From Ananas comosus (taxonomy: Eukaryota; Streptophyta; Magnoliopsida; Poales; Bromeliaceae), in assembly GCF_001540865.1 (NCBI RefSeq), contig NW_017893421.1, positions 1-64,000 of the forward strand: 64,000 bases of DNA, read 5' to 3'. The notes under the pieces are model-generated. The model was not told the origin of the DNA, ran no database searches, and was given only the letters and a program-made list of their open reading frames with translations. A program made the position numbers and the translations under genes. This document shows, one piece after another, positions 11,267-55,545 of this stretch; position 1 is the first letter of the stretch; each line of letters opens with the position of its first letter.

Positions 11267-12111
11267 TTTTATTTATGTAATGCTTTGATTGGTGCTTATT
11301 GCATATTTTTATTCATTGTATTACATGTTTAGATGATTTTTGATGCTTAGAATTTGTTTTGAAATTTGGTTCTAAAATCTTTTCGAGATAGATGATTGGA
11401 AATTAAAATTCAAAAATTTTTGAGAGTGGTAATGTTTTGAAATCATTGATTTGGGGAGATTAAATTTTACAAAATGCCTTTAACCATCTCAAATTCACAT
11501 TCATCTTGAGTTAAATTCATATTAATTATCAGTTTTACTCCACTTTTATTATTTTAACGATAATTTATTATATGATTTCATAACACATATATTCATCAAA
11601 TTTATGAAATCAAATTTGATCTCTTAACGATTAATCTAACTTGGTTGTGTGTGTTGAAGATGATGAATGGTTATTTGCTAATAAACTAAAGTTTGTCAAA
11701 TTTTCTTTCAAATGCGAGATTGTCTAATTTAGGAAAAGTTTGAATTATAAAAAAAAATTTTGATACAAAAAGAAAAAGAAAATAAAAAAATACTCCTATG
11801 TTTAAAAGATATGAAAAGAGTTACATCCAAAAGGAGTGTGAAAACCACCACTACATGTAGGAAAGAGCTACCACCCCGGTCATCCGGTAAGTGTGTGAAG
11901 CTACCATATGAAATTGATAGAATCGCCGAAAAGGTTAAAAAAATGATGAATATTTAAATTTTTTTTGGAGTTATAAGGTGGTAGGATAAAAAGATACTCA
12001 AAGAGCCACTCCCGGTGTTATATTAGCTAAATCTCTATTTTGAACGTTTTGCGACAAATTGGTGTCAATTTTGCTGAATTTCTATATGTCGTGTTTCATG
12101 AACCATTTCAT
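11267..12111 (+). other. Non-coding spacer replacing pol in the copia element
   Basis: This AT-rich stretch, continued at 14647-14820 after the solo LTR, aligns with 54019-54990 of copy 2, including the block near 11820-11900 (GTTACATCCAAAAGGAGTGTG). No open frame of note and no copia pol motif were found on either strand. TTCAT at 12107-12111 is the left target duplicate of the LTR that follows. Confidence 0.75.
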
Positions 12112-14641
12112 TGTAAGAAAGTGAATTCTCGAAATCCGAGAGTTGGACTTCACTCAGAATCGACTAATTGTCGAGTGGGTATGCTTCGGAAAAGCTGAAG
12201 AAGTCAAAAACCTAAAAAGTGCATTGCAACGGATTCAGGAGAGCAAGTTGTGCAAAAATCTGCACTTGGCAGATTTTGCTCTCGGGGACCGGTCCCTGGT
12301 GTGAGGGACCGGTTCCCGTAAGCATGGGGTGCGCAGAGAAGTCTCTGCGCACAAGTATTGCTCTCGGGGACCGGTCCCTGCGGGGAGAGACCGGTCCCCG
12401 TACGCGCAGCAAACGAAAAGAAGGAAAAATCGGCTAAGTCCTGAGTGTTCTGCTCTCGGGGACCAGTCCCTGGTGGGGAAGACCGGTCCCCGTACGCGTA
12501 GGAAGCTGGGCAGAGCCCTCTGCCCGCAGGAGAGGCTCTCGGGGACCGGTCCCTTTAGGGACAGACCGGTCCCTGAGCACGAAAACTTCCCAGTTTGGGC
12601 TGTGTGAGAGAAGCAAAGTTGAGGGGCTTGGATGCAATTATTGCATTAGTGAGGGGTATAGATGGGAGATCACCCTTTCTCCCTCTCATTTCCACACCCA
12701 AACATCTATCCCTCTCTCTCTCTAAGCTATCTCTCTCTCCCTCTCATGAAGTGAAGAAGGAGAAGAAGGAAAGGAAGGAGAAGAAGGTGGAGAAGAAGGA
12801 GAAGCAAGCTAGAGAAGGGCTTTGGTCATCTTCTTCTTCCTCTCCTCACCATTGGAGCAAGCTTGGAGGTAAGCTTTTGAGTTAAACAATGGTAGAGACC
12901 TAGGGTTTGGATTTTTACCTCTAGAAATAGTTTGATTAGAACCCTAGCATGGATAATAGATGCTTAATGCTTAAAGCTAGAGATTTGTTTGGGCATTTTT
13001 GCATAGATGCAAACCTAGGGCTCCAAATTGGGGCTTTGCTTATTAATGGGGTTTGATCTCAATTGATGGCATCTAAACCTAATTGCTAGGTGTCTAAATG
13101 CGTTAGCGAGGACGGATTGAGCATTCGTCGAGTCGTTGAAAAGTTATCGGCAAAACAAGACCGATTGAGCTTCGTTTCCACCTATGAGGCTGAGACGACA
13201 TCGTAGCAAGTGCCGAGTAGCATTCTTTGAGCCTCAACATCGTTGAAAGGTGGGTGGTGTCATCCCGAAGCAACCGGGTTCCTCTCTATGTCTTAGCACA
13301 CCATGATTTTGCATCTCTTGCATGTTGCATTGTAGGATTGCATTGTTTTCCATTCCTTATGCTTTCTAATTGATATCATAGTGTGAGTTGAATGATTGAT
13401 ATTATGAATAGATGAGGATTGGGTCTTGACATTGAATCCTATAGTGCCGAGGAAAAGAGATAGACTCGATGGCTACCTAGTGATATGATGAGTGGCATGT
13501 GATTAACAAATGAACAGAACGAGTGGAATATAATGTAGTGTACAATGACATTAGTGATATATGAACTTAGGGATAGGTGGACTCCCTAGTGATGGCTCGT
13601 TGAACAAAGAAATAGTGTAATTAAATACTTACACATGGACATTGGGATAGGTGGATTCCCGAGTGACTTTTAGCCCTAGTTGATAGGGTATCCTCGAGTT
13701 GAGAGGATCGATCATACTCACAGTTTGTTTATACTTGTGGTGGTCGCGCCACACAAGTCGTCGTGCACTCCGGAGTTTGGTACGAGAGGAGCATAGTTGA
13801 TGTCCCGTAGACGGTCCCAGGTTTGAGAGCGAGGTGAGTCTCCTTACCATACGGGATGGCGAGGTGAGTCGTAGGCGAACCCAAGGGATCGCCAAGGATT
13901 GGTTGGACAAGAGAATAGCACTGTCTTTGAACAATTGCTTATTGGACATTGCAGCAGACATAGTGGCATGTTAGTAAACTACTTACTATATGATGCATGC
14001 ATACATTACACATGATTTGGGCATAGTAGCATAGTTTTCTTACTATGTCATTTGCAGTTTTCATATCTATCTATATATCTATATGCTTTTGCCCACTCAG
14101 ACCTAGTGGGGAGATCGGCGGAGTCGGCGGCCGAACCCACTGGGAACTATGAACAATAGTTCTCACCCCACTTTGTTGCAGGGCCTAGTTTGAGCGCGTC
14201 GTGCGAGGATCGCGGCAAGGGTACAGCGCCCGAGCAGTAGTTACTAGTATATTTCCTTTTTGCATTAACATCACCCTATGTATATGAGTGAATTATGTAG
14301 GTGAGGATTTGGAGAGCTATTGGTGTATTTTGGTGGTTATCTAGTAAACCATGTAATCATTTTGAGAGGTGGAAATGTAAATCGGTGTAAAAGAATGCAA
14401 TGTGATGTAATAGCTAGTAAATCTCTCTTTGTTCACTTGTTTGCACATGTGACTCTTACTCTTAGTTGTTGGCACTCGTTGTGCCCTTCGTTGATTGTGT
14501 ATGTATAGAATTTTCTATTCTTGGGCAAATTCTTGTACACATCTGGTTGTTTAGCCTTGGGCGGACAGAGAGGTGTTGTCCGTTCGACGTCTGTTCGACG
14601 CGCCCGAACCGGACCATTGGTAGCGGTCTCAGGGCGTGACA
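12112..14641 (+). mobile_element. Solo LTR, gypsy-type, 2,530 bp
   Basis: TGTAAGAAAG...GGGCGTGACA flanked by TTCAT and TACAT (4 of 5 bases match). Copy 2 of the host element is uninterrupted at the same place, which confirms the insertion. From left to right: ACCGGT array, CT-rich then GAA-rich leader (about 12700-12830), GAGGTAAGC donor-like site (GT at 12869), CTCCGGAG block near 13770 and LTR hairpin at 14136-14170. Confidence 0.93.
12288..12570 (+). promoter_or_regulatory. Four ACCGGT pairs, each with a 20-bp offset
   Basis: The cores start at 12288/12308, 12370/12390, 12462/12482 and 12545/12565. The offset is exactly 20 bp in all four pairs, while the gaps between pairs are 82-92 bp. 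One core is changed (ACCAGT at 12462). The first core lies 176 bp from the LTR start, the same distance as in the LTR at 34133. Confidence 0.75.
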
Positions 14642-14828
14642 TACATCTTGCTAGATTTTGAACCAATAGACTATTTTTTATAACATAATTTTGTAGTTTA
14701 GATAAATTAAGAAATCATGTAATATTTTATATTCATTATAATGATTTTGGAGTACAATCTTTAATTTTTATAAAATTGACTTAATTTGAATCATTTTAGT
14801 GTAAAATTTTGAATTTCTGGCACGGGGT

Positions 14829-15386
14829 ACCAGTACTCGATCCCGCGTACCAATACCAACCGTGCGAATCTGTTTTTAAAATCCGGTTAAACCTTTTATT
14901 TCTCCACTTATACTCCATCAAACCTCCCTCTTTCTCTTTCTAAAACCTCCTTAACATCATTCTCGCCCGGATCTTGGTATTTTTAGCAAAGATTTGTAAG
15001 TAACAACTCCAGATCTGATCTTTTCTCGTTCAAAATCCTAATTTTTTCACTCTTCGAACTATTTTTTGGGTTGAAGATCGATCTCTATTTTTCATGATTT
15101 TTTTAACAATTTTTTGCTTTGTTTCACTTAAAATACATGCATGCTTGCTTCTTGAACACTTAGATTAGGAAATAACGCATTATATTTTGCGGATCTAAGA
15201 TTTTTAGCATGTAGTATGTGGAATTTCGGGTTTGAGTTTGGAATGTCATTTTTCATGAAAAATCATGCTTAAATCTGTTGGAAATAGTGTTATTATGCAT
15301 TCTAATTTGATTAGAAATTGTTTATACTATTTTACAAGTTTTTATTGTGATTATGTTTATGAAAGGTTCATTTTTGTATAGGAAAA
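14829..15386 (+). promoter_or_regulatory. Putative internal promoter, leader and leader intron of the envelope-like gene
   Basis: A decayed dyad pair (ACCAGT at 14829, ACCAAT at 14849, offset 20) lies where copy 2 has two perfect TGTACCGGTACA sites. A CT-rich leader follows (about 14930-14945), then a GTAAGT donor at 14996-15001 and a TTTTTGTATAG acceptor ending at 15380. That gives an intron of about 385 bp, in the same place as the intron of copy 2. The start codon region follows at 15387. Promoter and intron are inferred from the conservation between the two copies. Confidence 0.55.
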
Positions 15387-15524
15387 TTGACATTTTCACT
15401 GTTTCTTGTCCTGATGGTGCTCATGGCCACTGGGAGTGGTCGTGGTCGTGGTCGTGGTCATGGTCGTGGTAAAGGCCGTCGAGGGGCTTCTTAATGAACT
15501 CGTACTGAAGATGAGTCGTCATTT

Positions 15525-16820
15525 TTGGATTCTCACTATCGGGCGAGTTCCTACGAGGAAGAGGAAGAAACTGCGATTCACATGGATAAAGGCAAAGGGA
15601 AAGCACCCAAATCATCTAGAAAGAAAAAAGGTGTTTGCTCTCCTCCTCTGCGAAGCACTGGTGGCCCCGTCATTCGCGAGGGAGGAGTTCATGAGCGCGA
15701 AAGTCGATCTAAGCATGCCACAGAGATACAGACACAGCGGCATAAGGCTTTTTCGAGCAGATCGTGCCTGGCGAAACGCTATGTAAACCACAACGAGCTC
15801 ATCAGGGAGGTTCCTGACTTTGGGCATTTACTACATAAAAGCCCTATTGAGCCCGTTGGGAGGATTCCGGCATGTGCTGCTTTTTGTGTAGAACTTATTC
15901 GGGAGTTCTACATGCGTGGGAAAGAACTCGCGGAGGATCAGGAGACGTGTACTTATCTATTCGAGACATATGTGCGCAAGAACAGGATTCATGTTACCCC
16001 GCAGACTATTGGGAAGATATTTGGGTTACATGTTGATACTTCTGGACTTCACTATACCTCGGTCACATATCAGCAATCATCACATTGGGACACGGTTATT
16101 AGTACAATTTGCAAGGACGGGACAAGGACAAACCATGTCTATGTTGAATCCAAGGATTTGAGGCCTGAATATCATATTTTGTCTTTGATAATCTACCACA
16201 ACGTGCTACCGACAATTGCAACAAAAAGGATTCGCTGGGATAGGCTTGTACTTCTCTACTTACTTGGCCACCTAGAGCATGCAGATGGGTTGAATGTCAA
16301 CATTCCATTCCTGGTGCGGAAGAGGATAGTGCATGTTATTCAGTCTTCTGGGCAGCTTGAGCTACTTCCTTTCCCGATTCTGATCACACGGATTCTACAG
16401 GACAATGGAGTAGATATCACGTGTGAAAAATACGACTATGGCCTTGGACCGATTGACGGAGTGACATTGGCCAAGTCAGTTAGCACTTTGAAGACTTTCC
16501 CGCAAACAAAGGCACATCATACAGCTACTTCGAGTTCAGCTCCTCAACATGCAGAGCATGAGGGTTCATCGAGCTCATGGGGAGTCATTACTGTGGAATC
16601 GCTCCACCATGAGATTCACTCTTTAAATAAGAGGGTTGAACAAGGCTTCAAAAGGTTGAAGGAAAGAATGAAAAGAATTATGGAGAAACTCGAGTGTCGT
16701 CACGACGATGTTTTTCCGAGTTACGCTAGACAGAGTTCCTCACATCAGGTTGCACCACTCGCAACTAGAGCACTTGAGGATGTTGGATATGATGATGATG
16801 ATGATGATGAAGACACTTAG
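15525..16820 (+). CDS. Envelope-like / putative plant transposon protein of a Sirevirus-like element
   Basis: This is a 431-residue open frame. The natural start was probably further up, in frame, at 15387 (ATG in copy 2, TTG here), giving a hydrophobic N-terminus (LTFSLFLVLMVLMATG) and an Arg-Gly repeat. Two in-frame stops (15492-15497) now separate that part. The core (about residues 100-300: VELIREFYMRGKELA, IHVTPQTIGKIFGL, RIRWDRLVLLYLLGH, LNVNIPFLVRKRIV, LLPFPILITRIL) has the pattern I know from SIRE1-type envelope-like proteins and the putative plant transposon domain. A Ser-rich linker, a coiled coil (about 350-395) and an Asp-rich tail follow. Function is unknown, and the envelope role is only a proposal in the literature. 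No second membrane segment is evident. Confidence 0.7.
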   Translation: MDSHYRASSYEEEEETAIHMDKGKGKAPKSSRKKKGVCSPPLRSTGGPVIREGGVHERESRSKHATEIQTQRHKAFSSRSCLAKRYVNHNELIREVPDFGHLLHKSPIEPVGRIPACAAFCVELIREFYMRGKELAEDQETCTYLFETYVRKNRIHVTPQTIGKIFGLHVDTSGLHYTSVTYQQSSHWDTVISTICKDGTRTNHVYVESKDLRPEYHILSLIIYHNVLPTIATKRIRWDRLVLLYLLGHLEHADGLNVNIPFLVRKRIVHVIQSSGQLELLPFPILITRILQDNGVDITCEKYDYGLGPIDGVTLAKSVSTLKTFPQTKAHHTATSSSAPQHAEHEGSSSSWGVITVESLHHEIHSLNKRVEQGFKRLKERMKRIMEKLECRHDDVFPSYARQSSSHQVAPLATRALEDVGYDDDDDDEDT

Positions 16821-17303: not shown

Positions 17304-17561
17304 TTGTTATGGATTTTGTGTTGGCAAGTTTCATGATTTGAGTCGAAGTCTTGAAGGGTTTTGTAACACACTGGACCTTTGCAAATTGTGGGGTTCAAGT
17401 GTTTGATCTGTGTTTTGAGTTTTTCTAGTTGTTCTAGAAGGTCGTTGACAGTGTTCTGACTCATGGCTCGCATCCCAAGAAATGAGGTTTTTAGCTTAGC
17501 CCTAAGGTCTCCAAAGAGAAGAATTTAGGCTGCTCTCGGGTTGGGTTCAGCAGGGTGTTGT

Positions 17562-17671
17562 ACCGGTACAACATTGGGCTTGTACCGGTACAGAAGGTTA
17601 TTCCCTGCCAACCCGAGGCTCGGGTTTTTGTCTGGCTGGTTTTGTACCGGTACACTTTCCCGTGTACCGGT
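17562..17671 (+). promoter_or_regulatory. ACCGGT dyad array (TGTACCGGTACA type)
   Basis: The cores start at 17562/17584 (22 bp) and 17646/17666 (20 bp). The array begins 200 bp from the LTR start. Confidence 0.7.
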
Positions 17672-17680
17672 ACACAATGC

Positions 17681-20256
17681 TGTCACGCCCTGGTATCAGC
17701 GGAAGCATGGCCGGTATGTGCACAGACCCGCCATATACCTGCAGTATATAAGGCGTCTACAGAGAACACATGTCGAGGGAAGGAAAACATAGCAAAATCC
17801 TAACCAGATATCAGAGCAAAGTATAAGTCAATGATACTAGCATCAAAGAGCATAAGAGTATAACCCAAAACAACTCAACATCCTAGAGAGGTATAGAAAC
17901 TACAATCCTCGATTCAAACCACTCATTTACATCACAGGGTTATACAAAATATGTGTACAATGGTAGTCTCTCTATACACTGGACATCACCCTCGGCTGTG
18001 GCACGAGTAGCAAGGTGATCATCTAACAAACCATCAAGCTAAATCTAGCTAGGCACGACTCCCTTGCCACCTAATCTCTCCTGTAGGTGATCCTGAAAAA
18101 CAACAACCAAAGGGCGTGAGAACTATTAAACAATACTTCCCAGTGGGTAAGTCGCCAGCCTCGGCGAATTACACCAGTAGACTCATGATGTACTATATGA
18201 AAAGTAAAAGCGGAGATAGCATGAAATATCTACAATGCTAACAATTTAATAAACAAGTAATCATGCTTTCCAACTGAAAAAGAGTCAAGCAAATGAAACA
18301 AACATAGCAATTACTATAAGCATGAACATATAAGTAAGTACTGTACAGTGTAAATGGCATTCATTTATTTCTGTCATTTAGTAAGTTAAATTGTTAACTT
18401 TATTCCCCAGGACCTACTCAAGGTAGTCCAGCTTGCGCCGCGCCTAATGGCCCCGTGGTAGTGTACACTCCCCACGGCAATCCACTTCGGCACTCAATCC
18501 CGCACGGGCGAGCAACTGTCGCGTAGGCCAACTCCGGAGTGCTGGCTTGTAGGGAGCGACCCTCACAAGCGTATGCGAATGAGCACAATGGCAAGCAAGC
18601 ATAATCCATAGTCCAACATATCTCTGTCATCATTCTCGTTCTCGATTCATTGATCAGAATTTAATATAATGAATAATAACAACAGCTAGTATCCACTAGA
18701 TTAGTAAGCACATGAAAGTAATGCTTAATCACATATTGTATAGAAACTTTTCACTATCCAGGCACTATCAATGTAGTCGCAAGAAATGTCATTGTTCTCT
18801 ACTTTATAGGAACATAATAGATTGTCCATGAATCATTCAACTGAGCCGAACATAAACATGTTTACTTCTATGCATGAAACATAAACATGAGTTTCTCTAT
18901 GCATGAGTTTCTCTACTTAATAGAGATTTCATTTCAATACATATATCAAATATTATGGTGATAATGTTCTGAATCTATATCAATTACCAAGTTACACAAA
19001 ATGCATTCGTATGCTATTTCTATAGTATCATATAGAACATAGGGGAGCTTCACTTGCTCTGGTTAGGTCAAACCCACCTATTACTAGGCTCAATCCAGCT
19101 CAAAGGAATCCCAAAAATCAGCTCAACTAGGCCTCAACCCTACTGAAAATGAAGCATCAAAACCGTATTAAACCTACAACCGAAATGTCCAATTTCGGCA
19201 CAATTTGCACTTAGTACAAAGTAGTAACTTAAATCCCTGCTTTGGTTCACTTTAATACCTCAAGATTAACCTCTAAAGGCTCTCCAATGCCAACCAAAGA
19301 TCGTCCAAAAGTCGGTTGTACGCTCGCTGCGGACAACACCAAAACGGCATCACAATGCTTGTTTAGAAGTTAATATAACCAAAATCTTGCGAAATCAGTG
19401 TTCTAACTGAAATTTCTACGTACCCCTATTTGGAACACCTTCCAAACTAGTTCCCAAGGTCACTAATTTAGTTCAAAATGGCTCGGAAACCTGCTGCGAA
19501 GAAATAATTCCAAACTGCATCAAGTTACTCAATTAGATGACAAGTAGTCTCGAAATAGCTTCATAGATAACTAAATATCTTCCTCAAGCTTCCAGACAAC
19601 TTTTCCTTGGGCTAAGATGGAGAAATCACAGCTAGATAACCCCTCTCTAGCTGCTGGAAGCCTTCTCCAACTCAGCTGGAAGCAACGGAACTAAAATGCG
19701 TCAAAATCCAATACTAAACCACAAACGAGAGAGAACTTGAATTAATTACCTCTCTACAGCTGAGGTTCAGCTTCTCTGATGATAAACTCACAAAAAAAAC
19801 TCAGTGAAACACCTCCTTCCCACGTTCCAAGAGCTTTCTTCAAGTCTCCAAGTCAGCAAATATCAAGCGGAACGCGAAATCGACGCGAATCGGCGACTTT
19901 CACGTAGAGAGAGAAAAACCCTAGAGAGAGAAAGTGGAGAAGATAAAAAAAACACCCTTCTCTGAACTCTAACAGCATCTACAAGGGTCTAGGAGTCGTG
20001 CTGGAGGGTTAAAGATAGACATTAGATATGAAATTACCAAAATAGCCCTGCTGCCACGTTTCTGCCATTGTGTACCGGTACACAATGCAGAAAATTCTGA
20101 TTTTCGCCAGAGCAATGCACTTTCTTGTGTTTAGCCTTTCAATCACTCCCAGACTTGTCCAAAAACTTGTCTAAACCCTTTAGAATATGTAGGGTAGCTC
20201 CACTTATCATTCCACACACTCGAACTTCGCAATTTGCCAACGTTCAGTGTATTACA
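17681..20256 (-). mobile_element. Solo LTR, gypsy-type, 2,576 bp, minus strand
   Basis: On the plus strand it runs TGTCACGCCC...GTGTATTACA, with a perfect AATGC duplicate on both sides (17676-17680, 20257-20261). It has one dyad (TGTACCGGTACA, core at 20074, 177 bp from its 5' end), the hairpin at 18112-18147 and the CTCCGGAG block near 18533. It inserted within 5 bp of a dyad of its host LTR. Confidence 0.95.
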
Positions 20257-20312
20257 AATGCAGTCCGCAGACTGCTTGTTCTGGGAGGGTGTTTTTCCAA
20301 TTGTTGCTTATC

Positions 20313-20319
20313 TATAAAG
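20313..20319 (+). promoter_or_regulatory. TATA box of the LTR at 17362-22519
   Basis: TATAAAG stands downstream of the dyad array once the nested LTR is taken out, and a CT-rich stretch and donor-like GAGGTAGG (GT at 20570) follow. Position and sequence fit a pol II core promoter. Confidence 0.55.
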
Positions 20320-22073
20320 CACCCCACGCCCCCTCTAGGTCTCCCTGTGCTGAGAACAGAGGAGAGAAGGTACGGGAGCCCTCCACTCCTCTTTGATTTT
20401 TCTTGATTTATGTTGGGATTTTTGAGGTTTAAACTCTCCTTTTTGCTCCTTTTTGCTTCTTGGTGCCATTTCCACCATGGTTGAAAGCTTGGAGCTTGGA
20501 TTGAGGCTTGTTGGAGGAGAGATCTCCAACCCTAGCTGACTTTGAGCATTGTTTGGAGCTTCACTTGAGGTAGGCAACATGTTTCCTGCTTTAGATTCAT
20601 CATTTTCATGGTTTTTGTGTAGAAACTCTAGAAATGTGAAACTTAGGGTTTATTTGGAGATTTTGGATTTAGGACTTTTGGAGCTCAATTTTTTGGATTA
20701 GAACCTTCGTCTAGGTTGGATTGGAAGGGTTCTAGCTCCTATTTAGAGATCGAGAGAGTTTTTCCCCATTTAAGGTGAGTTTTGCCCTATTCTTTGGGTT
20801 GGTTAATGTTTAACCTATGTGTTCGTAACATTTGCGTAACTCTCCTTTTATTACCTTTAGGGTGCTAGAAGAATAGTGGGCAACTTCATTCGGCAAAATG
20901 AAAGGGTTGCAAGGAGACTTAGTGGGTTTGGCCTTACCAAAAATGAGACAAATTCCATCGATGATGGTTTTATTTGTTGTAAAATGAAAATACTTGCATA
21001 TTCATGCTAGATAGAATATTTGTAAATTTTAGAATGCTTAAATTGTATATGTCATGCATCATGAGTTTTGGCCTCTATGTAATAGAGGATTATGTGCATA
21101 GCACCCATGTTTGTATATGGTAGCCTCATGCTATGTATGAAACCATGTTATTAGTAGTTAAAGGACAAGTATTTACTTGCTATGAACGATGGACATATGC
21201 TATGTATGGTAGAAAATCTAATGTCATAAAGGGGCATTAATCTTGACATATATATATATGGACTTGGAAATACATCTCGCCATGAAGTGGCATTGGAACT
21301 TAGAACATGCTTGGACATAGTAAGATATAATGTCATGAAGTGGCATTAGTCTTGGAACATGACAGAACTTAGTGAACCTAATGTCATGAAGTGGCATTAG
21401 ATATAGTAAATGGATGAAGCCTTACTTTGGGACTTTGAACTGGAACCTTAGGTTGCTAGTGACTATTTCCATGATTAGAGACATGATGATCGGGTTCTTG
21501 AGATGATGACTATGCTTGCTTGCCATTTGTGCTCATTCGCACATGCTTGTGAGGGTCGCTTCCTACAAGCCGGCACTCCGGAGTTAGCCTTTGTGACAGC
21601 AGTTCGCTCATGCGGGATTGAGAAGCCTACCGGGACGCGTGGGATAGACTCATTCCAACGTGGGATGATGGGCTACCATAGGCAGTTAGGCGGCACAAGC
21701 CGGACTACACTCGTGTAGATCCCGAATGAGATTGGACATTAACATTAAACCATAATATGACGATCACTACTAGATAGATTATAGTAATTGGATTTCTTGG
21801 ACATGTTTATGACATAGTATTGGACATATGGACATATAGTATACCTGATAGTTCTGCTTATTGCATTCTAGTATACTTGTTGACATGTTAGAGCATACCA
21901 ATTATGTATTGAGCATATTTGACCATGATAGTATAGATGTACATCATGTTATATTGTGGCTTAGTAGTGTAGCATTTCCTTTTTATGCTTATCATACGTA
22001 CAGTTATTAGTAGTTACTTTTCTCTACTCATGCTTTTGGGCTTAGTGGTGCATTTTGCTAAGGTCAGTAATTA

Positions 22074-22110
22074 CCCACTAGGAACTATAAATTATAGTTC
22101 TCACACCCCC
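22074..22110 (+). promoter_or_regulatory. Conserved LTR hairpin (best example)
   Basis: CCCACTAGGAACTAT, then ATAGTTCTCACACCCCC. The core GAACTATAAATTATAGTTC is a perfect inverted repeat. Relatives on the plus strand are at 14136, 36272, 42059, 44950, 48286 and 62973; on the minus strand at 5754, 6320, 18112, 24421 and 50064. In gypsy LTRs with a readable 3' end it usually lies 400-525 bp upstream of that end (about 145 bp in the LTR ending at 48431). I could not find it in the copia LTRs. Confidence 0.65.
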
Positions 22111-22725
22111 TGTTTTATGTTTTCTTTCAGAGCCTTCCACCCCGTGAGAGGCTCGGGATCGCGAGAAACGAATTGCCTAGAGCTAGCTAGCGAGAGATTT
22201 GTCGATAGGTGGTCTACCTCTCTTTTGGTTTTATTTTGGAGAGGAATGAGAGACTTGTACCATTTTGTAGAGGCCACCCTGTTTTGTATCTTGAGCTTTG
22301 TATAGAGTTGAGATGTTTTACTTCACTTTCACCTTGGTGGTTTAGTTTCCTTGATTCTACTTGTTGATAGATGCTAGATGTACACATGCTCTGATATCTC
22401 TAGATATTTATTATCTCTTGTTTATTTATTGCTATTATTGTAGACGCCTTATATGTGCAGGCATATGGCGGGTCTGGGCATGCTACCAGGAGGGCCTCCG
22501 CCGGTCCCGGGGCGTGACAGGTTCGGTGCATGATTGTCGAAGATCGAAGAATCCAAGGTTCCGAAAACTCAGAAACATCTCACTGCATGAATCACGATGC
22601 TCATGTAAGGTTTTAATTCATATTATGGTGATTCATACTTATTTATAGACATTAGAATCATATGAATCAAAGATTAAAGGATTAGAAGTGGTTTGAGTGA
22701 TGCAATTCTGGATGTTGCATTGAGT

Positions 22726-27136: not shown

Positions 27137-27318
27137 ACCAGTACACGGGACCTTGTACCGGTACAAGGACTGGCAGACAGCATGAACCCGAGAGCTCGTT
27201 TTCTCGGTTTCGCAGGTCTTGTACCGGTACAAGACCCCTTGTACCGGTACAAGGCCTGGCAGCTCCAAGCCGAGTACTTCGCCGGTTGTACCGGTACAAC
27301 CATTGGCCTTGTACCGGT
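27137..27318 (-). promoter_or_regulatory. Three ACCGGT pairs in LTR U3
   Basis: The cores start at 27137 (ACCAGT)/27157, 27223/27243 and 27290/27313, with offsets of 20, 20 and 23 bp, in TTGTACCGGTACAA palindromes. The nearest one lies 208 bp from the LTR 5' end. Confidence 0.72.
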
Positions 27319-34132: not shown

Positions 34133-36795
34133 TGTAATATACCGAAAATTTGAAAAATAAATATCGAACTTTAGTCAAATTGACCAAAGTGCGAGGATGG
34201 TACACTTCGGAAAGTCCGAAGGTGTTAAAAAAATCAAAAGTGAGTTACGAGAGGTTTTCGAGAGCTAAAGGTCAAATTCTGCAAAACTGCAGATTTTGAG
34301 CTCTCGGGGACCGGTCCCTGGTGGGAGAGACCGGTCCTCGAACGCGTATGATTTGAGGCAGCCGAAAAATCGGCTAAGTCCTGAGAAATTAGCTCTCGGG
34401 AACCGGTCCCTGCCTGAGAGACCGGTCCCCGAGAGACCGGTCCCCTAAAGAGAGACCGGTTGCACCGCGCGCGGCAGCTCTGGCTGCGCTGGGACGACCT
34501 TCGGGAACCGGTCCTTGAAGGAGAGACCGGTCCCTGCCTGCGCGAACTGCCCATTTCGGGCAGTGTATTAGAGTTAAAGTTGAGGGGTTTATTAGCATTT
34601 TTGCAACCCAATGGTTATGTATGAGGGACATGAGGGCTTTTCTCTCATTCCACTCCCTCTCACACTCCCTCCTCTCTTTCTCTCTCTAGAAGACAAAGAA
34701 GGAGAAGAAGAAGACAAAGGAAAAGAAGGAAAAGAAGGTGGAGGAGAAGCCATTGGAGTGAAGCCACTTCATCTTCTTCCTCTCTAGTGCAAGTTAGGGA
34801 AAGCTTTGAGGTAAGCTTCAACCCTAATCATGCTAAAATCCTAATGTGAGAGCTAAATGACCTAGAAATGGTTTTTAAGGAGCTTTTAGAGTATTTGAAA
34901 CTTTTCTTTTGCTTCTTTTGAGATCAAGACCATAGGTTTAGTGTTGGAGGTAAAGCTTGAAGAAGAGCTTCACCACCTCTCATGGTGAAATCCAAACTAG
35001 GGTTTGGAATGAGTTACGAATGGTTTAGATGAACTCTTTAGAGTATATTGAAGCTACTTTTGCTTCCCATGGAGATCAAACCCTAGGTTTTGTATATATA
35101 TTGTAGCTAGGGCACCAAATTGGGGCTTTTGCCCATGGAGATTTCTAAGTGAAATTGACCCTTCAAAAATCTAATTGGGGGTTTTTCCGACGCGTTGGTG
35201 CGCTCGGATTAGCGTTACGAAAAGCCAAAGTAAAGATATGAGCAAAATGGCCTAATAGGGCTTCGTTTTGCCGCAGGTAGTGAACCGGGTGTCTAAAAAC
35301 CCCAAGTAAATCGTCGGCGCACCTAAGGAGACCTACGAGGTGGGTGGTGCTTCCAAACTCGTTGAACTTCTCTCTATGCCTAATGTGTCATTCAATTGAG
35401 CATATGTTATATACTTGTTGCATGCATTCTAGGGTAAAGTGATGATAAAAATGTGATGTCGCATGATTGTGAGTACAACTTGCTTAATGTGATGGTCGAG
35501 GACCTTATGAATGTTAAAACCCTATATGTATGCATGAGAGAAAATGTGAGTACCCAAGTGAGGCAAAAGAACAGAGTGACCCTATGACATAGATCGAGTG
35601 GCATCTAAATAATGTAAAGTTAAAGTGATACTAGAGTTAGTGTGAAGCAAAGAATCAAAATAATGTAAAGAATGATGACGATGACTAAAGCTAAAGCAAA
35701 GAAGGCAATAAAGAACGTATAAAGAATAAAGAACGTGATTGCTAGAGTTAGCAAAAGTAAAAGAAATGTAAAGAGCAATGATTGCTAGAGTGGCAACATA
35801 AAGTGATGTGAAGAACACTAGAGTTAGTGTAAAATCAAGATTGAACTTATAATCCTTTGAGTTAAGGATTCGATCATACTTGCTATGAGTTCCGTGCTCG
35901 AGGGCGGTCGCTCCCCCTCGGGCGATGCTCTCCGGAATTATGCATCACGGGTTGGAGTAAACCCGAAGGACGGTCCTAGCTGGTGAGTTCCTACGATGAT
36001 GGACTTAATGTGAAGCAAGTTAATGTGGCGAAACCCCCGGGTTAGCCTTGAGATTAAAGAACAAAGAGCAAAGAACAAAGAATGGAGAATAAAGAGTAAA
36101 GACAAAGAACGAAAGAATTTGCATAATCCGCATATATTTAATGTTGAGCATATTTCTTGCTATTTGTTCAGGTATATTAGCATCATGTTATAGATTGGTT
36201 ACTATACAGCTTATTCTTTCTATTATGCCTGAGTTAGTCCTAGTGGGAAAGTCGGTGATGTTGGGGCCGAACCCACTGGGAACTTTCTTGTAGTTCTCAT
36301 CCCACTATTCCACAGAGCCGGGACCGAGCGAGCTGGCGAGCGACCGCGGTAAAGGTATCGCACCGTAGACAGAGGCCACCGGAGTTGGGTTACATTTTGT
36401 TAGTAGCTACCCTATGTTCATCTTTTGTATTTGATGACTAGTGATGTAAAGAAAAGAATGTAAAGCATATTTTGAGGTAAATGTGATGTATGAAAGAAAT
36501 GACGCCAACGATGTAATGTAATGAAATGCAAAGAATCCAAAATGTAAGAGATGAATGCAATGTATATGATCAAAAGTGAATCATAGTACTTGTGTAGATG
36601 TTTGGTTTTCCTTTCTTTCACTAATGGCTATTGCTTACCCTAGTGTAAGCCGTTTTTGTATGTTTCCGCTAGTGCATTTCTTATTGAAAATGTACATGTG
36701 ATGAGCCTTGGGCGGATAGGGGAAACTCTGTCCGTTCGGCGTCTGTTCGACGAACTCGGGCCGGCCCAAATTTGTATCGGTCCCGGGGCATGACA
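34133..36795 (+). mobile_element. Solo LTR, Tekay-like family, 2,663 bp
   Basis: TGTAATATACCG...GGGCATGACA between perfect ACATC duplicates (34128-34132, 36796-36800). It is the same family as 5287-8435 but lacks its 566-bp duplication. Layout: dyad array, CT-rich leader (about 34660-34690), GAA-rich stretch, donor-like GAGGTAAGC (GT at 34811), AT-rich middle, CTCCGGA block (about 35930), hairpin (36272-36306), terminal block. No internal element sequence remains. Confidence 0.97.
34309..34531 (+). promoter_or_regulatory. Eight ACCGGT cores in LTR U3
   Basis: The cores start at 34309/34329 (20), 34402/34421 (19), 34436/34455 (19) and 34507/34526 (19). The first is 176 bp from the LTR start, as in the LTR at 12112. 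Confidence 0.75.
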
Positions 36796-37765: not shown

Positions 37766-38606
37766 TAGCCTGTAATGCACCGAATTTTAATATAAAAGTA
37801 AGTATAAATAAAAATAGTGTGAGATACTATTTTTATTGGACTTAAAGAAGTAAAATATAAGTCGGAAACGACTTGTGCTGAAATCGGAACGGAAACAGAA
37901 GATTTAAAATTTTGTGTAAGGAACGGGGCTGATATTTTAGTAGAAAATTCACAGTATCAGAAAATTATGAAAATCTCGAAATATGTCGGGATTATTTTTA
38001 TGAGTCTAGATTTTAAGTTTTATGTCATTCCGACACTCGAAAAGTGAAAAAAAAAATCCGACTCCTATCTGCTAGAGATTTCAGTTCGGTAGAGCTTTCG
38101 GGGACCAAAAATAGTCGGAATTGAAAGATTAAAATTTTTGTATTCTTATTAAGTTAAACCGAGCCTGAATGTCAAATTTAAGCTCAAACAGACATTCAGA
38201 AGGGCTCCGACGAAAAGTATCAGATTCTGAAAGCTAAACTGCTGGTTGTAATAGTGTTTTGAGGGGCTATTTGTAATACACTGAACTTTGGCCAACTGCC
38301 AAGTTCGAGGGTTGGAATAGCTATTGGAACTGTTCTATGACTTTTGAAGGATTGTTGAAAGGTTATTAGCAAGTACGGAAGCAAGCAAGTAGTCGAAAGT
38401 GAAAAAGTGCATTGCAAATGCACTATTCAAGTGAAGTATTCTAAACTTGGGTAATGGTGAAGCTTGAGATAAGGATTGGTATTGCGAGTTAACCCACATC
38501 TTTTAAAGAGTTATAGTGAGGTCCTTGACAAGTTAAAAGAGTGATCGAACAGCCAGAAGATCGAAAGTGCATTGCTACTGCCAATTTGCATAATCTGCAT
38601 TGTTGT

Positions 38607-38656
38607 ACCGGTACAAAGTTGATGCTGTACCGGTACAAAGTTGATGCTGTACCGGT
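38607..38656 (+). promoter_or_regulatory. Three TGTACCGGTACA palindromes at 22-bp period
   Basis: The cores start at 38607, 38629 and 38651. The unit TGTACCGGTACA plus AAGTTGATGC is repeated exactly. The first core is 335 bp from the LTR start. Confidence 0.75.
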
Positions 38657-39363
38657 ACAACCAGCAGTAGCAGCAGCAGCTGGGTGGCAGCAAGGTGTTT
38701 TTGGTCTTTTCTCATCTCAAACTTTTCCCTAACACCCCAGCTCGACTCCAGCATATAGCTAAGGGGTGTTAGAGCTCTGAGGATCAGGTTGGGGATTTCT
38801 CTCACTTTCTCTCTCCAGGATTTCTCTCTCTCTACCAGGAAATCAATAGTTTGAGCTAGAAATCTTCTTCTTGCTTGATATTAGCTTGTTGGGAGTACTT
38901 TGGAGGTGTTATTGATGGAAGAAGAAGGAGTTTGAGGAGTATTTCGCAGCTCCCTTGCAGCAGGTAGCTGAGTGGAGGGTTGCTAAGGTAAACAACTAAA
39001 CTACTTTTAATAGAAAGTGTTAGTAGTAAGATTGAAGGCTGATTTTGGGGTTCTTGTTCCAGCTAGGTGAGAGGAAGAAGTGTGACTGTTGCAGGGTGTT
39101 TTATGGTACCCTAACTCAGTTAAAACTGAGTTACAAACTGAGAAGATCAGGTAGTTAATTTCTTCCCTGTTTGAGCATAATATAGTGTATACTTATGCAA
39201 CCTTAGAAGCTGTTTCGCAGCAGGGAACTTGAACTCTGCATATTTTGAGGACATGTAATTGATCCTAAGCTAAAGAGAAGTTGAAGGGAGATTAGAAAGG
39301 TAAATGCTTCACCATTTGTCTTATACTTGTACTCTAATAGGTTTCTATGTGAGGTTATGATGC

Positions 39364-48431: not shown

Positions 48432-48517
48432 CATAAAATCAAAATTTAGTGGATTAGAAAGTGCGTCGAAACTTTGCAAAACTCGAAACTGTGCAAAAAC
48501 TGAAAATTGCAAAGTGT

Positions 48518-48717
48518 ACCGGTACAGCATTGAAAGTGTACCGGTACAGATTGTGTTCCGGTACAACCAGCGACATGTCACTGGTTACACTGTTTTGCAA
48601 GATTTTCTGTTCCGTCATCGTGTAACCGGTAACAACTTGAAAGTGTACCGGTACACAATGTAAATTCTTGAAAAACTTTCTAATCCAATTCTAATTGAAT
48701 CTAAAGTCTATAAATAA
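48518..48717 (+). promoter_or_regulatory. Copia LTR promoter: dyad pairs plus TATA box
   Basis: The cores start at 48518/48540 (22) and 48625/48647 (22), with a half-site TCCGGT at 48557. TATA box CTATAAATAA starts at 48708, 56 bp after the last core end. Confidence 0.72.
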
Positions 48718-49372
48718 GCTATTGAGGTTGTCTAACACATCAAGCATTATGAGAATACATGTTTGAGAAATCCTAGAGGCTAGGATTTCATCCAAAATCT
48801 ATTTTCTACAAAAAAGCCTCTTTTAGGTCAAATCGAGAGATTGTAATTTGATATCAATATGTCGATTTGATCTACGCTTCGCTTGGAGTTTTCTTCTCTA
48901 GTTTTCCACAACACTCTAAGCGAAGGATCACCATAGCATGATGTTTTTCATGGATAGTGTCGTGGATCCGGCGTGATTGAAGGCGTTTCGTGGATTCGGA
49001 TCGGGGGCTCGTGGATTCGAGTGGCGTTCGTGGATTCAGACGTGTGCGACGTGCTTGTGGATTCGAACGTGAGGGCGTGGACAACCGGGAGGATTGCGCG
49101 AGATTCGTAAGAGGTTAAGAGAGGTCGAGTCCGTGGAATCAGTAATCACCTTGTAATCTTTTCTCTTAGTGAATTATTTTTTCGCGTGTTGGTCACGTGG
49201 GTTTTTCTCCAAGTTGGAGTTTTCCTACATAAATCTCTGTGTGATTTTTATTTTCCGCATATATTTTTATCGCATTGAGATTTGTGGTTTTTTTGGCTAT
49301 TATACCATTCACCCCCCTCTAGGTGTTAGATACAATCTAAATAGATCCTTGGGCTACCCGAAAACTTATAAT

Positions 49373-49636: not shown

Positions 49637-52195
49637 TGTCACGCCCCGGGACCGGCGGAAGCCCTCCCGGTAGCGTGCCCAGACCCGCCATATGTCTACA
49701 CATATAAGGCGTCTAGAATAAAAGCGGAAGCAAAAGCAAGTAGTATGACAAATAGAAGAAGTGAAATAACGAGCAACCAATGATATCAGAGCGAGTATAG
49801 TTCTAACATCTACACCAAAGTAAAGAAGTAAAGCTAGACAATAAAAGGAGTCATAAGTAGTACAATAACCGTCCCTAATACAAAAAATGGTGGTCTCTAT
49901 GCATGTACGGGTACAATTCTCAACCCCTCACAAAAAGAAAACACGAGAGGTAGACCACCTATCGAACGATCCCTCGGTAAGCGCGCTAGCCCGAGGCGAT
50001 ACCCTTTCCGCGATCCATGGCCTCTCCCTGCGTGGAAGGCTCTGAAAAACATCGAGAAAAAGAGGGCGTGAGAACTATAATTTATAGTTCCCAGTGGGCA
50101 ATTACTGACCTCAGCTCTATGCACCACTAGGCCCCAAAAGAAAAGGGTAAGTACAATAATAATAGCGATAATGACTGCGATATAAAGGCATAATTAAAAT
50201 GCTAAATTACTAAACTCAAGTATAAACGATGTCATGGTGATGTAGTCTACGATATACCAAAATAGTAGTCATTACCTTTATAAATACATTATGATAATTC
50301 TGTCATGGCAACAAGTATGCTTTATGCAAAAAGGGACTATCAAGTTATATACATGTCCAACACTATGCTAAAAGCACATAAATGCTAATTCAACTACTAA
50401 ACTATCTAGCTAGTGTATTCACATTCGCAAACACCTGTCGATTTCCCATTTCCAATTAAGGACGCTACGCAAGTAGGCACAGCTATGTGCCGCCTAAGTG
50501 CTGTGTAGCCCACCCAATCCCTACTCTTGAATAGTGTCTGTCCCAACTCGAACCCGTAGGCTTCTCAATACCGCCAACGATAGCGAAACATAAGTTGCGT
50601 TTAGGCTAACTGGCCAAGTGCGCGGCTAAGGAGCGGACCCTCCAGCAAGTGCGAATGAGCACAAATAGGCAAGCAAAGCATGCTCAAGTCTCAATATCAA
50701 TCCTTCTGTCCTAACATGGTACGGTCACCAGAGATCCCGAAGATACTAGTTTAAGTCACAATGGAAGTTTCAACATTTGCTACGTCGGTAGTGGCCCCTT
50801 GATGACAACTTAGGCAATTGATGTTAACATGTATTCCAAACCCTCATGGCTATCCACTAGGTTTCACATATCTCGAGCTCAATGCCGCTTTATGAATTAG
50901 CTCTAGTTCACGATACCTTCTAAATTGCGAATTTGTCATCTTTCATGTACCAAGCTAAAACTCAAGTTTAAATGCATGAATCGAATCATTTACACTATTA
51001 GAAGCATAACAAGTCTATAAAGAATGCTAAAATGCAACCATAATTTCCTCAAGCACTTGCTACTACTACGATCCAAAATTTTCATTCATAGTGTAACATG
51101 TGGCATTTTAAGCTCGTAAAATTATCATAAGTAAATACATTAGTAGAAATATGCATGGTTTTGCAATTTACGACAGTATATAGACCATATATGAGAATTT
51201 CTCATATAGAGGCTAGGTAAGCCACCGTCGCGTAGGCTCGTTTCGCCGAACAAAGTTGTCCCCGAGTACTCAAAATACACTAAATAGTTGCCTGACAAGA
51301 TACAAGGCATTCGATCACTATGAGATCAAACTTAAACAATTTAGCAAAAGGGCCTAACTACCAATGAGTGTGAAAAATCTCTCTTCAAGCTCAAAAGAGA
51401 GCTACATCCCTTCCAATCCAACCCAAGAAGGTCCCTAACTCCAACCAACATTTAGCTTGCCAAAAGCCCTAGATCAAAAAAGCTCCCAAATCACCCTAAA
51501 ACCTCATTCTAGGTTCCATACAATAAAACCTCAATCCAGATGTAGATGGAGGAAAAGGCTACCAACTCCAAAGACAGTCAATCAGAGCTCCAAGGGTAAG
51601 TTTCTTTGCAACTCAATGCCAAAGCTCCAAGTCAAGCGTTTCAGAGCACCAACAAGGTGGGAAGAGGAAGAAAGGCAAAGGGATGCTCCAAGCCCAAGCT
51701 AGATCCTTCTCCTCTTCTTCTCCTTCTTCTCTCTCTAGCAAGAATGTGGGGAGAGGGTGTGAGGAGAGAAAATGAGAAGGGAAGAGGGTGGTGTGGCCAT
51801 ATAAGCCATCTAGAGTGACAAAATCCCAAGAGGTCCCTCAAAAACCCAATATTGCATCAGCTCGGTCTGGGCAATTTTCGCCCAGAGGGACCGGTCTCTC
51901 CCCAGCAGGGACCGGTCTATCGCTGCGAACCCGAAAAACCAACGTTCGGGAACCGGTTTCTCCCAGCGCGGGACCGGTTGCCTCAAGGCTGCCGCAACAC
52001 TGTTCATAGGGGGGACCGGTCTCTCCTTTTACGGACCGGTCCCTGAGAGCAAAAACTCTCAGGACTTATCCAGAATTCCAGTTTTCGAACTTTTTAGGTC
52101 GGAAAACATTCTACCACCCTCCACCAAGTGTGGAAAAGCTCGAAATACAACCAAGCACTCGAACCTCGCAATTTGCAAAGTTCCAGTGTGTTACA
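49637..52195 (-). mobile_element. Solo LTR, gypsy-type, 2,559 bp, minus strand
   Basis: On the plus strand TGTCACGCCC...AGTGTGTTACA between perfect GCAAG duplicates (49632-49636, 52196-52200). It is inserted in gag. It is the same family as 60867-63423. Hairpin at 50064-50098 with a perfect 19-bp palindrome. Confidence 0.96.
51797..52040 (-). promoter_or_regulatory. LTR promoter: three dyad pairs and TATA-like site
   Basis: The cores start at 51890/51911 (21), 51952/51973 (21) and 52015/52035 (20). On the minus strand a TATA-like GGCTTATATGG (51797-51807) follows 83 bp after the last core, then a CT-rich leader. The sister LTR at 60867 shows the same 83-bp step. Confidence 0.68.
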
Positions 52196-54018
52196 GCAAG
52201 GGTATAAACGCTTTATTTAATGCACTATCTCAAACGGAGTTTACTCGTGTTTCGGCGTGTAGTACCGCCAAAGAGATTTAAGATACTCTACAAGTTACGC
52301 ATGAAGGAACTAGATTAGTAAAGGTCCAAAAATTATAAATGTTAACAAGTAAATTTGACTTAATTTTTATGGAAGAAAACGAGACCTTTACCGAGTACTA
52401 TATGCGTCTACAAGACGTTGTTAATACATGCGCGAACTTGGAAGAGAAAATCCCGGATGCTAAAGTTGTTAGAAAGATCCTTCGCACTCTTCCGGAACGC
52501 TTTCGGGCAAAAGTTGCCGCGATCGAAACCGTAAAGCATCCGGACGAGATGAAAGTCGAAGAGTTAGTAGGTGCTTTGCAAACTTATGAGATGACTTTTC
52601 CTACTAACCAATCTACTTCCAAGTGTTTTTCTAAAAGTACAGGGTTGCGTTGAAATCTACAAAGGAAGAAGGCGACGACTCGGATTCCGACGGAGATGTT
52701 TTGCTCGCAAATTTCGAACATCAATTGGCGCTCTTAACGAAGAAGTTTCACCGGAATTTCCGAAAGAAGAATAAATCGAACAAGGCTTCATCGTCTAAGC
52801 AACAACCTTTTTCTAAATCATCTTCATCTTCTAAATCTAAAGAAAAGAAACTTGCAAAGTCTTCAAAAGAAATAGATGAATTTGAAGGGGAAATCCAATG
52901 CTACAAATGTAAAGGCTACGGTCACATTGCAACGGATTGCCCTTCAAAGAAAACGTATCGACAAAAGGCTTTGCAAGTAAAGACTTGGGATGATTCAACT
53001 TCTAGTGAATCAAGTTCAAGTGACGAAGGAAAAAATGAACTTGCTTTGTTTACTAACTTCTTTGCCTTCGTCTAACGTTGTTTGTTTATCCTCTATTACT
53101 TCTAACTCTAGTATTTCGCCTTCTTTGCATGGATCATCGAGCGACAACGGCGAAAGTGAGGAGGAATCAAACGACAAGGATATAGCGAAAGTATACAACC
53201 AACTTCTTATCGAATCGAAAAAGATGGCCAAACTTAATAAGAAGTTGAGGCGTCGTTTGTTGGATATCGAAGAGGAAAACAACAACTTGAAGACAATGAA
53301 TAAAGCTCTTAAGGAGGAAAGGGAATCAATTTTGAAAAACAATTCGATCCTCCAAGAGAAGCTTAATGAAGCGGATTCAACGATCAAATCACATAAGGAT
53401 AAAGTTGGATTTTTGGAGCAACAATTTGAGGAATCGTACAAATCCAATCAATCCTTGATCGATCAAATTTGTTAACTCCAATCCGATATTCAAAAGTTTT
53501 CTTCGGGATTAAAGAAATTGGACCATATGCTTGGGTTGGGTCAAACGAGCAAGTTGGGCCTCGGATATGAAAGAACATGTATTGAGAAGGATTCAAAATC
53601 AACTTCTAAAGTCTCAACAACTTTGAAAGATAAGGTGTGTCATCAAAGTGGCATCAAAAGACACATCAAAAGAAGTTGCCCGGAAAAGGAAAAGAAGAAT
53701 CAATCGGCAACTTTGAAACATCAAGCAGGACCCTCTACTACTCGACTTCTCCCACGGAATCAAAAGAAAAAACAATTAAGTCGAGCACCTCAAAGGAACC
53801 GGTTTTCTAATGCTCAACGTCATTTTCGACCGAACCCACAAGCAAACCGTGTGTCTAAGCTTCAACGACAAGTTCAACCGAAGCCTCAAGCAACGAAACG
53901 ACCAACGGTTGATTCAAAATCAAAACGAATTGTGTCTAACGTCGACAACCCAAGACAACCAACGATCCAACAAGTGTGGATCCAGAAAGGTGATATCTTT
54001 CCTTACTCTTCGTCTTAG

Positions 54019-54999: not shown

Positions 55000-55545
55000 A
55001 CCGGTACAAAATACCGTGTACCGGTACAAATCACTGTGCCACGTCTTTTATAACCGGTTATAGGATTTCGTTTCTCACCCAAATCAAAACGAAATTTCCT
55101 CCTCTCTCTCTAAAAATCCCAGGTGGTCTTCTCCTTCAGATCCACGTGTTTTTCCCTCAAGATTTGTAAGTTTATAGCTCGGATTTAATCATTTGCTCGC
55201 GTTTTTGCTATTTTTTCGAAAAATTTCGAGTTGAAGCATGATCTCTATTCTTAATCGTTTTTTATGCAATTTTTTGCTGTGAATCAGTATTTTGACATAT
55301 AATCTTGCTTCTAGAACACTTAGATCAAGTTATAATGCTGTATTTTTTGCTGATCTTTGTTCTGTACCTCTATATATATGAAATTTCGGGATTTCTGTTC
55401 AAATGTCATTGTTGATGAAAATTTTTGCATGATTTAGTTAGAAATAGCGTTAGTATGCATTCTATTATTATTAGAAATTTTTTTGCTATTTTTATAGATT
55501 TTTTCAAGATTTTGTTCATGCAAGGTTACTTTTTGTATAGGAAAA
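55000..55545 (+). promoter_or_regulatory. Putative internal promoter, leader and intron of the envelope-like gene
   Basis: Two perfect TGTACCGGTACA sites (cores at 55000 and 55020, offset 20) and TATAACCGGTTATA (core 55053). A CT-rich leader follows at about 55090-55115, then a donor-like TTTGTAAGTTT (GT at 55167) and a TTTTGTATAG acceptor ending at 55540, 5 bp before the ATG. The same parts stand in the same order in copy 1. I see no clear TATA box. Confidence 0.6.

Follow-up and report, generated by a model that had tools for sequence, protein, structure and literature searches.

Phased pairs of ACCGGT palindromes in two flank classes adjoin promoter-like sequence in pineapple LTR retrotransposons

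Why does one six-base palindrome recur in pairs, about two helical turns apart, in the long terminal repeats (LTRs) of retrotransposons? The question is raised by a 64,000-nucleotide stretch of the pineapple (Ananas comosus) genome, positions 1 to 64,000 of the forward strand of NW_017893421.1, hereafter called the window, which is a nest of elements. The solo-type LTR at ~12099-14641 (L2; about 2.5 kb, + strand), for which an exact target duplication was not found, holds an array at 12288-12570 (+) with the core ACCGGT at 12288/12308, 12370/12390, 12462/12482, and 12545/12565, each pair spaced by 20 bp. An initial annotation of the window had attributed such pairs to a dimeric host factor bound on one face of the DNA. 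On the basis of the sequence analysis reported here, we consider it likely that the pairs are operator arrays of LTR promoters, and in one case of an internal promoter, on which dimers would lie side by side, mainly on one face, and activate transcription.

We counted 70 ACCGGT sites in the 64,000 bases of the window, where 100 dinucleotide shuffles averaged 7.14 and never exceeded 17, and the motif ranked as the commonest palindromic hexamer there. The enrichment over shuffled controls that the initial annotation expected was thus confirmed. The coordinates and steps that it listed are also present, except that four of its sites (12462, 27137, 61039, and 61215) are one-mismatch cores, each in phase with an intact partner. 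Since 12462 is one of them, only three of the four L2 pairs are intact, the other having one decayed core. The LTRs of a copia-type element hold additional one-mismatch cores, and their pairs, described earlier as spaced by 22 bp, span 21-23 bp, several of them with one decayed member. The exceptional 15-bp step from 34421 to 34436 is real. Ten LTR copies had been reported to carry the palindromes; we counted 12 LTR arrays, plus one array inside an element, upstream of an open reading frame (ORF) (55000-55053).

With one-mismatch cores included, 37 of the 59 steps between neighbouring cores measured 18-23 bp (null in the same spans: mean 11.7, largest 24, n=20,000), and the proportion was 28/49 when only intact cores were considered (null mean 8.0, largest 20). 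Collapsing related LTRs left eight arrays, in which 23 of 37 steps fell at 18-23 bp (null mean 7.0, largest 17), or 18 of 31 with intact cores only (null mean 5.0, largest 13). In the window, the distance histogram is not flat once related LTRs have been collapsed.

We then counted the same patterns in the whole pineapple assembly (381,958,007 bases, of which the window is contig C2936), using the reversed spelling of each pattern (TGGCCA) as a control. ACCGGT occurs at 117,238 places and its reversed spelling at 56,531, and GGGACCGGTCCC occurs 8,914 times versus 188. Pairs of ACCGGT spaced by 18-23 bp numbered 34,356 (control 698), compared to 3,953 at 12-17 bp (control 177) and 583 at 24-29 bp (control 82). 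Twenty 10-kb stretches, sampled at round coordinates, contained 95 sites versus 23.5 expected; among their 55 gaps below 300 bp, 26 were of 18-23 bp, 2 of 12-17 bp, and 1 of 24-29 bp. Most of the pairs that we examined lie in retrotransposons.

The longer steps also followed the helix. Before the genome counts, when sample arrays were already known, we had fixed the prediction that steps of 49-53 and 59-63 bp (5 and 6 turns) would greatly outnumber those of 54-58 bp (5.5 turns). The counts agreed with it: 6,442, 1,026, and 18,096 at 5, 5.5, and 6 turns, respectively (reversed controls, 221, 79, and 399). The five-turn bin weighs most, as steps of this length do not arise from a repeat unit of 20 bp. 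For 43 longer steps in arrays outside the window, a scan from 7 to 16 bp gave a best period of 10.4 bp, which was reached in 0 of 500 nulls, four steps below 18 bp (14, 15, 15, and 17) having been left out of this test. The 21 distinct values among these steps gave an R of 0.59 and a p of 0.0004 at 10.4 bp, or 0.04 with the period scan. We also examined a set of 38 arrays, 13 from the window and 25 from outside, which leaves out ten of 23 listed loci that overlap others and also L095, an 18-bp pair with a different look. In this set, all-pair distances of 2 and of 4-11 turns each outnumber the next half turn; those of 3 turns do not (5 vs 8). The common DNA face proposed earlier is thus supported for the pairs and for steps of at least 4 turns and is broken by steps of 14-17 bp.

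Regular spacing could also result from descent and tandem duplication alone, if short repeat units of ~20 and 60-90 bp, present in a few ancestral LTRs, had been spread by copying and unequal exchange without the spacing having any function. In favour of this, we found a 22-bp tandem unit that is exact at 38604-38660 and near-exact at 48506 and 57817, duplications of 82 and 174 bp in L2, and LTR ends in common between elements; in addition, the array-masked flanks of 19 of the 25 outside arrays resemble a window LTR, in a comparison that used rough LTR ends for L4, L7, and L8, and the same bins stand out weakly in the reversed control. However, the five-turn steps are no multiple of 20 bp, although they are 6 times as frequent as those of the half-turn bin. 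Paired sites had an identity of 0.14-0.51 beyond the third base, compared to 0.21-0.30 at random, with a clear rise at only 1 of 10 positions.

The cores are also better conserved than the DNA between them. In four homologous pairs of LTR pieces, cores were identical at 131 of 134 aligned bases (45/45, 34/35, 24/24, and 28/30), gap columns being omitted (3/48, 13/48, 0/24, and 0/30 in cores), whereas spacers inside arrays were identical at 289 of 370 (86/125, 65/79, 86/93, and 52/73). Identity was 109/129 for the 3 bases on either side of the core (36/42, 31/34, 23/24, and 19/29) and 1251/1467 for the rest of the pieces (341/393, 261/323, 365/387, and 284/364). CpGs, compared in two directions, were retained in 22/23 and 22/22 cases in cores and in 38/53 and 38/66 elsewhere. 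Tandem duplication can account for some pairs, but not for the five-turn steps, the unlike neighbouring bases, or the conservation of the cores, nor does it sit well with the flank classes described below, which change while place, core, and spacing stay. As a complete explanation, we consider duplication unlikely.

The flanks of the core carry dyad symmetry, as claimed initially: position 1 outside the core is symmetric in 57 of the 70 window sites (26.5 expected) and position 3 in 56 (28.2 expected). Such palindromes might act in RNA rather than in DNA: at the 3' end of element transcripts, the paired copies would fold into hairpins with a role in packaging, dimer contact, or polyadenylation. 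Copies of one palindrome are indeed able to pair with each other, U3 belongs to the 3' end of the transcript, and some palindromes reach 22 bp. Nevertheless, the helical period and the failure of the inner arms to pair further out disfavour hairpins: beyond the fourth base these arms pair at chance level only (0.11 at positions 5, 6, and 8), and nothing in an RNA loop would select against 24-29 bp or for a period of 10.4 bp. Compensated changes inside the core were not seen either, and we regard RNA hairpins as very improbable.

The flanking bases divide the sites into two classes. Genome-wide, we counted 9,698 pairs of the type GACCGGTC (G class; control 169) and 10,264 of the type TACCGGTA (T class; control 198), but a single mixed-class pair in both orders together, for which free mixing would predict ~20,000. 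Because both arms of each site must match, the class patterns cover ~20,000 of the 34,356 pairs. In the 38 arrays, the base before ACC was G in 170 cases, T in 148, A in 46, and C in 2; G-class arrays accounted for 169 G, 38 A, and 1 T, and T-class arrays for 147 T, 8 A, 2 C, and 1 G. Arms of the opposite class were absent from 36 of the 38 arrays, whereas lone ACCGGT sites have even flanks (T22, C21, A20, G17). The classes were also tallied by spacing in the first 93 pairs among the matches listed, leaving out 8 in which a flank base was neither G nor T: the 24 G-class pairs were spaced by 18-21 bp, and the 61 T-class pairs by 18-20 bp (34), 22-23 bp (24), or 21 bp (3), with 0 mixed pairs. 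The earlier statement that the flanks differ by family while the core does not overlooks what matters most, namely the two classes, their near-absent mixing within pairs, and the occurrence of both at one place within an LTR lineage.

This last point emerged from the sequences around the arrays. The G-class arrays L5 and L6 have LTR starts in common with the T-class arrays L10 and L7 (L10 versus L7 gave no match above null, and L6 versus L7 was marginal), and a stretch of ~25 bases is common to L1 and L3 (G) and L4 (T). The T-class arrays L083, L089, L106, and L111, located outside the window, are flanked on both sides by sequence matching G-class L6, its LTR start on one side and its leader (from ~61460) on the other; G-class L092, like L6, shares flanking sequence on both sides with these four arrays. 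Likewise, stretches that match the 3' portion of two copia-type LTRs, C1 and C2, lie 226-508 bp away from the G-class arrays L102 and L078, nearly as far as that portion lies from the T-class array in C1 and C2. The copia-type lineage and one other LTR lineage thus each carry both classes at an equal LTR position. These shared flanks argue that the classes are not simply two lineages, and it appears from the sequences that the class was switched in place, for the whole array each time, at least twice.

Some arrays showed a further order or an odd composition. T-class L083, L089, L104, L106, L108, and L110 and the window array at 17562 seemingly combine a distal pair of 22-23 bp with a promoter-proximal pair of 20 bp, and the order of the pairs seems reversed in L100. 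At C1:7106113-7106176, a T-flanked and a G-flanked core lie 58 bp apart, possibly in a chimeric LTR.

We then asked what adjoins the arrays, and scored two features outside them: TATAWAW within 45-85 bp, and runs of 14 or more pyrimidines within 30-190 bp. One or the other was found beside 31 of the 38 arrays (null mean 6.8, largest 16, n=1,000), and a pyrimidine run alone beside 25 (null mean 4.9, largest 13). Together with the LTR starts, this reproduces the arrangement of U3 activators, in which repeated sites stand upstream of a TATA box or start region, and supports a position beside promoter-like sequence.

In the mechanism that we propose, one protein dimer would bind each palindrome, as its dyad symmetry suggests, and neighbouring dimers would bind cooperatively and mainly on one helix face, as the helical phasing suggests. 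Bound dimers would activate the adjacent core promoter; activation is favoured over repression, since spreading elements keep the sites. Near-absent class mixing points to two specificities, and the two flank classes may answer to two related proteins or to two versions of one. An LTR would then be read only with a nearly pure array, and a class switch would have to convert the whole array. We lean towards host proteins shared by several families.

A number of observations weigh against this reading. At the promoter, the distance limits for TATA boxes and pyrimidine runs were set after the neighbourhoods had been viewed, TATA alone was found beside 8 of the 38 arrays (null mean 2.2, largest 9) and hence not above every null, and the TATA box beside L10 belongs to a nested insertion. 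In the sites themselves, symmetry at position 2 (43/70) was no better than expected (38.9), and the second sites of G-class pairs are often half symmetric. Several arrays contain steps of 14-17 bp (~1.5 turns), and 3,953 pairs fall in the 12-17 bp bin, which argues against strict one-face binding. In the window alone, the longer steps were not significantly phased after collapsing (p 0.16-0.39, period scan). The reversed control is shaped like the ACCGGT counts over the bins (177/698/82 and 221/79/399), perhaps owing to TGGCC in array spacers, and is rarer by 13-49x in five bins and by 7x at 24-29 bp. The genome counts are not independent events, since many LTRs are related, and some pairs, in L7 and in the copia-type LTRs, are plain 22-bp tandem duplications. 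Finally, sites decayed in both copies were tallied as spacer in the conservation count, which, together with the omission of gaps and an aligner that lines up equal motifs, flatters the contrast between cores and spacers.

The remaining arrays of the window fall into the same two classes. Besides L2, which has a pyrimidine run 102 bp downstream of its array (+), the G class comprises four arrays. L1 (8050-8257, -; LTR start 8435) has steps of 20, 51, 19, 20, 72, and 20 bp. L3 (34310-34531, +; steps 20, 72, 19, 15, 19, 52, and 19 bp) lies in a solo LTR at 34133-36795 with an exact target duplication, ACATC. L5 (51890-52040, -; steps 21, 41, 21, 42, and 20 bp) lies in a solo LTR at 49637-52195, which also has an exact target duplication, GCAAG, and is inserted in the gag region of the copia-type element. 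L6 (61019-61220, +; LTR start 60867) consists of four pairs of 20, 20, 21, and 22 bp, with the one-mismatch cores at 61039 and 61215.

T-class L4 (27137-27318, -; LTR start 27526) has pairs of 20, 20, and 23 bp, a one-mismatch core at 27137, and palindromes of up to 22 bp; its intact palindromes measure 16-22 bp, and their outer arms differ between neighbouring sites. L10 (17562-17671, +; LTR start 17362; steps 22, 62, and 20 bp) is apparently interrupted by a nested LTR from ~17687. The LTR at 17362-22519 is inserted in other sequence with an imperfect target duplication, and a further LTR apparently lies inside it. L7 (38607-38656, +; LTR start 38272) has steps of 22 and 22 bp in a perfect 22-bp tandem unit, and L8 (45880-45903, +) is one 18-bp pair with a pyrimidine run 123 bp downstream. 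The last three LTR arrays, also T class, belong to copia-type copies: C2 (48518-48652, +) in the 5' LTR (~48432-49368) and C3 (57829-57963, +) in the 3' LTR (~57742-58677) of one element, each with a TATA box 56 bp past its last core, and C1 (22726-22856, +) in the 3' LTR of a second copy, with a TATA box 57 bp downstream.

A Pfam scan covered 37 distinct ORFs out of 106 stop-to-stop ORFs with a length of 85 amino acids or more. In the element carrying C2 and C3, it identified copia-type gag (PF14223, at 52339-52647) and zinc knuckle ORFs at 52339-53069 (+), and reverse transcriptase was not detected among the scanned ORFs (37/106). A class of elements named TR-GAG has been reported for pineapple in the available part of PMC6022998, and, with no reverse transcriptase among the scanned ORFs, the copia-type element resembles that class as described there. 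Of the initial attribution to gypsy and copia LTRs, our results support the presence of the arrays in a copia-type element (gag PF14223) and in other LTRs, whose gypsy origin is presumptive; to call the retroelements unrelated was too strong, since LTR ends are common to several non-copia LTRs.

The copia-type element also carries the internal array, a 20-bp pair with a third palindrome at 55053 (55000-55058, +), followed by a pyrimidine run 36 bp downstream (+) and by PF20167 (Transposase_32) ORF pieces at 55801-56937 (+). In the second copy, the corresponding array (14828-14855, +) has both cores decayed with the 20-bp spacing kept, and the PF20167 ORF (15498-16817, +) encodes 440 amino acids. 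An intron-like 5' leader (GTAAGT..TATAG) is kept in both PF20167-bearing copies. That the module occurs in LTRs and also at a promoter-like site within the element is more in keeping with control of transcription than with a role confined to LTRs.

This layout raises the possibility that the sites are targeted by a protein encoded by the retroelements, in the way that VANC proteins target sites in Arabidopsis VANDAL elements, the PF20167 product being one candidate. In both copies the internal array precedes the PF20167 ORF, a layout expected for self-regulation, and chromosome C1 has few pairs in its first 4 Mb (15 before 4.0 Mb among the matches listed, versus ~360 by the genome mean). The pairs appear sparse in these 4 Mb and dense farther in. 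The two motif classes further recall the C- and T-type motifs of VANC21, as far as the accessible text of PMC5735166 describes them. Conversely, arrays are also present in solo LTRs whose lineages have no demonstrated PF20167 gene. The 6 protein relatives of ORF 15498-16817 are all from Ananas comosus, nothing ties them to DNA binding, and the structure prediction (mean pLDDT, the predicted local distance difference test, of 37 from a 7-row alignment) is too poor to judge. Regulation by such a protein therefore seems doubtful. We give a similarly slim chance to a broader scheme, a code of two passwords in which two related dimers would read the G and T arrays, each stacking along one DNA face, LTR lineages (copia-type and other) would change password only by in-place conversion of whole arrays, the elements themselves would spread the readers (with PF20167 as a candidate), and anti-silencing or activation would be shared.

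Tandem activator sites in the U3 of plant LTRs are known from the BII boxes of tobacco Tnt1 and the heat elements of ONSEN. The pineapple arrays resemble them in placing repeated sites upstream of the LTR TATA box but differ in using one core for several LTR lineages and two flank classes that almost never mix. In logic, the nearest system is that of the VANC targets of Arabidopsis, judging by the available parts of PMC5735166 and PMC10398659. Like the VANC arrays of VANDAL elements, as presented in the available text of PMC5735166, ours are made of a short motif in many repeats, often in tandem and dense in the noncoding DNA of plant transposons, with related motif classes that diverge together. 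Unlike these, the pineapple motif is palindromic, paired at two turns, phased at 10.4 bp, and located beside the promoters of copia-type and other LTRs. VANC motifs are bound by a protein that the element itself encodes and that brings about a loss of DNA methylation. Their single orientation has no counterpart here: since the core is its own reverse complement, orientation is without meaning for ACCGGT arrays.

The rice R2R3-MYB OsMYB4P binds an ACCGGT probe in gel shift and interacts with itself; this site, known from rice, is described without a pairing or flank rule in the accessible portion of PMC12483970, unlike the pineapple arrays. The motif dACCGGTw is listed for MYB94 in the part at hand of a study of Arabidopsis and tomato (PMC8725346). 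Grainyhead-type/CP2 dimers of animals and fungi bind the palindrome AACCGGTT according to the extract of PMC3348937, which has the same ACCGGT core but A..T flanks, whereas the pineapple flanks are G..C or T..A; in the 38 arrays the base before ACC was mostly G (170) or T (148), with A in 46. A CP2 family search gave 0 matches in the pineapple genome, 14 control genomes being likewise silent. FRS/FRF genes, of which pineapple cultivar MD2 has 82 according to the available section of PMC8774480, are only a lead as the source of the reader protein.

ACCGGT is a primer or cloning site and not a regulatory motif in PMC6300899, PMC9994623, and PMC11049143, and an entry in a microsatellite list in PMC1940011. 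In IMG/VR, 67 stretches match the G-class pattern and one contig, L001, the T-class pair pattern; a search there with the reverse transcriptase (RT) protein found no relatives. L001:3475-3562 contains three GTACCGGTACA sites, two with TGT..ACA flanks and the first two 22 bp apart, which start just past an ORF ending at 3437, like repressor operators; their resemblance to the pineapple arrays is probably convergent.

A report of ACCGGT arrays was not found among the matches listed in the literature, where one may have been missed, and the main text of a 2018 survey of pineapple LTR elements does not use the words palindrome, motif, or promoter. What is new here is that the longer steps follow the helix, that the two flank classes almost never mix, and that promoter-like sequence lies just outside most of the arrays. 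In a single crop genome, one core of six bases marks the promoters of retrotransposons from several lineages, with 34,356 pairs spaced by 18-23 bp. If a protein reads these sites, much of the mobile DNA of pineapple would depend on a single DNA-binding system, and finding its reader would reveal in what way an activator is shared among LTR elements and a code of this kind is switched in its entirety.

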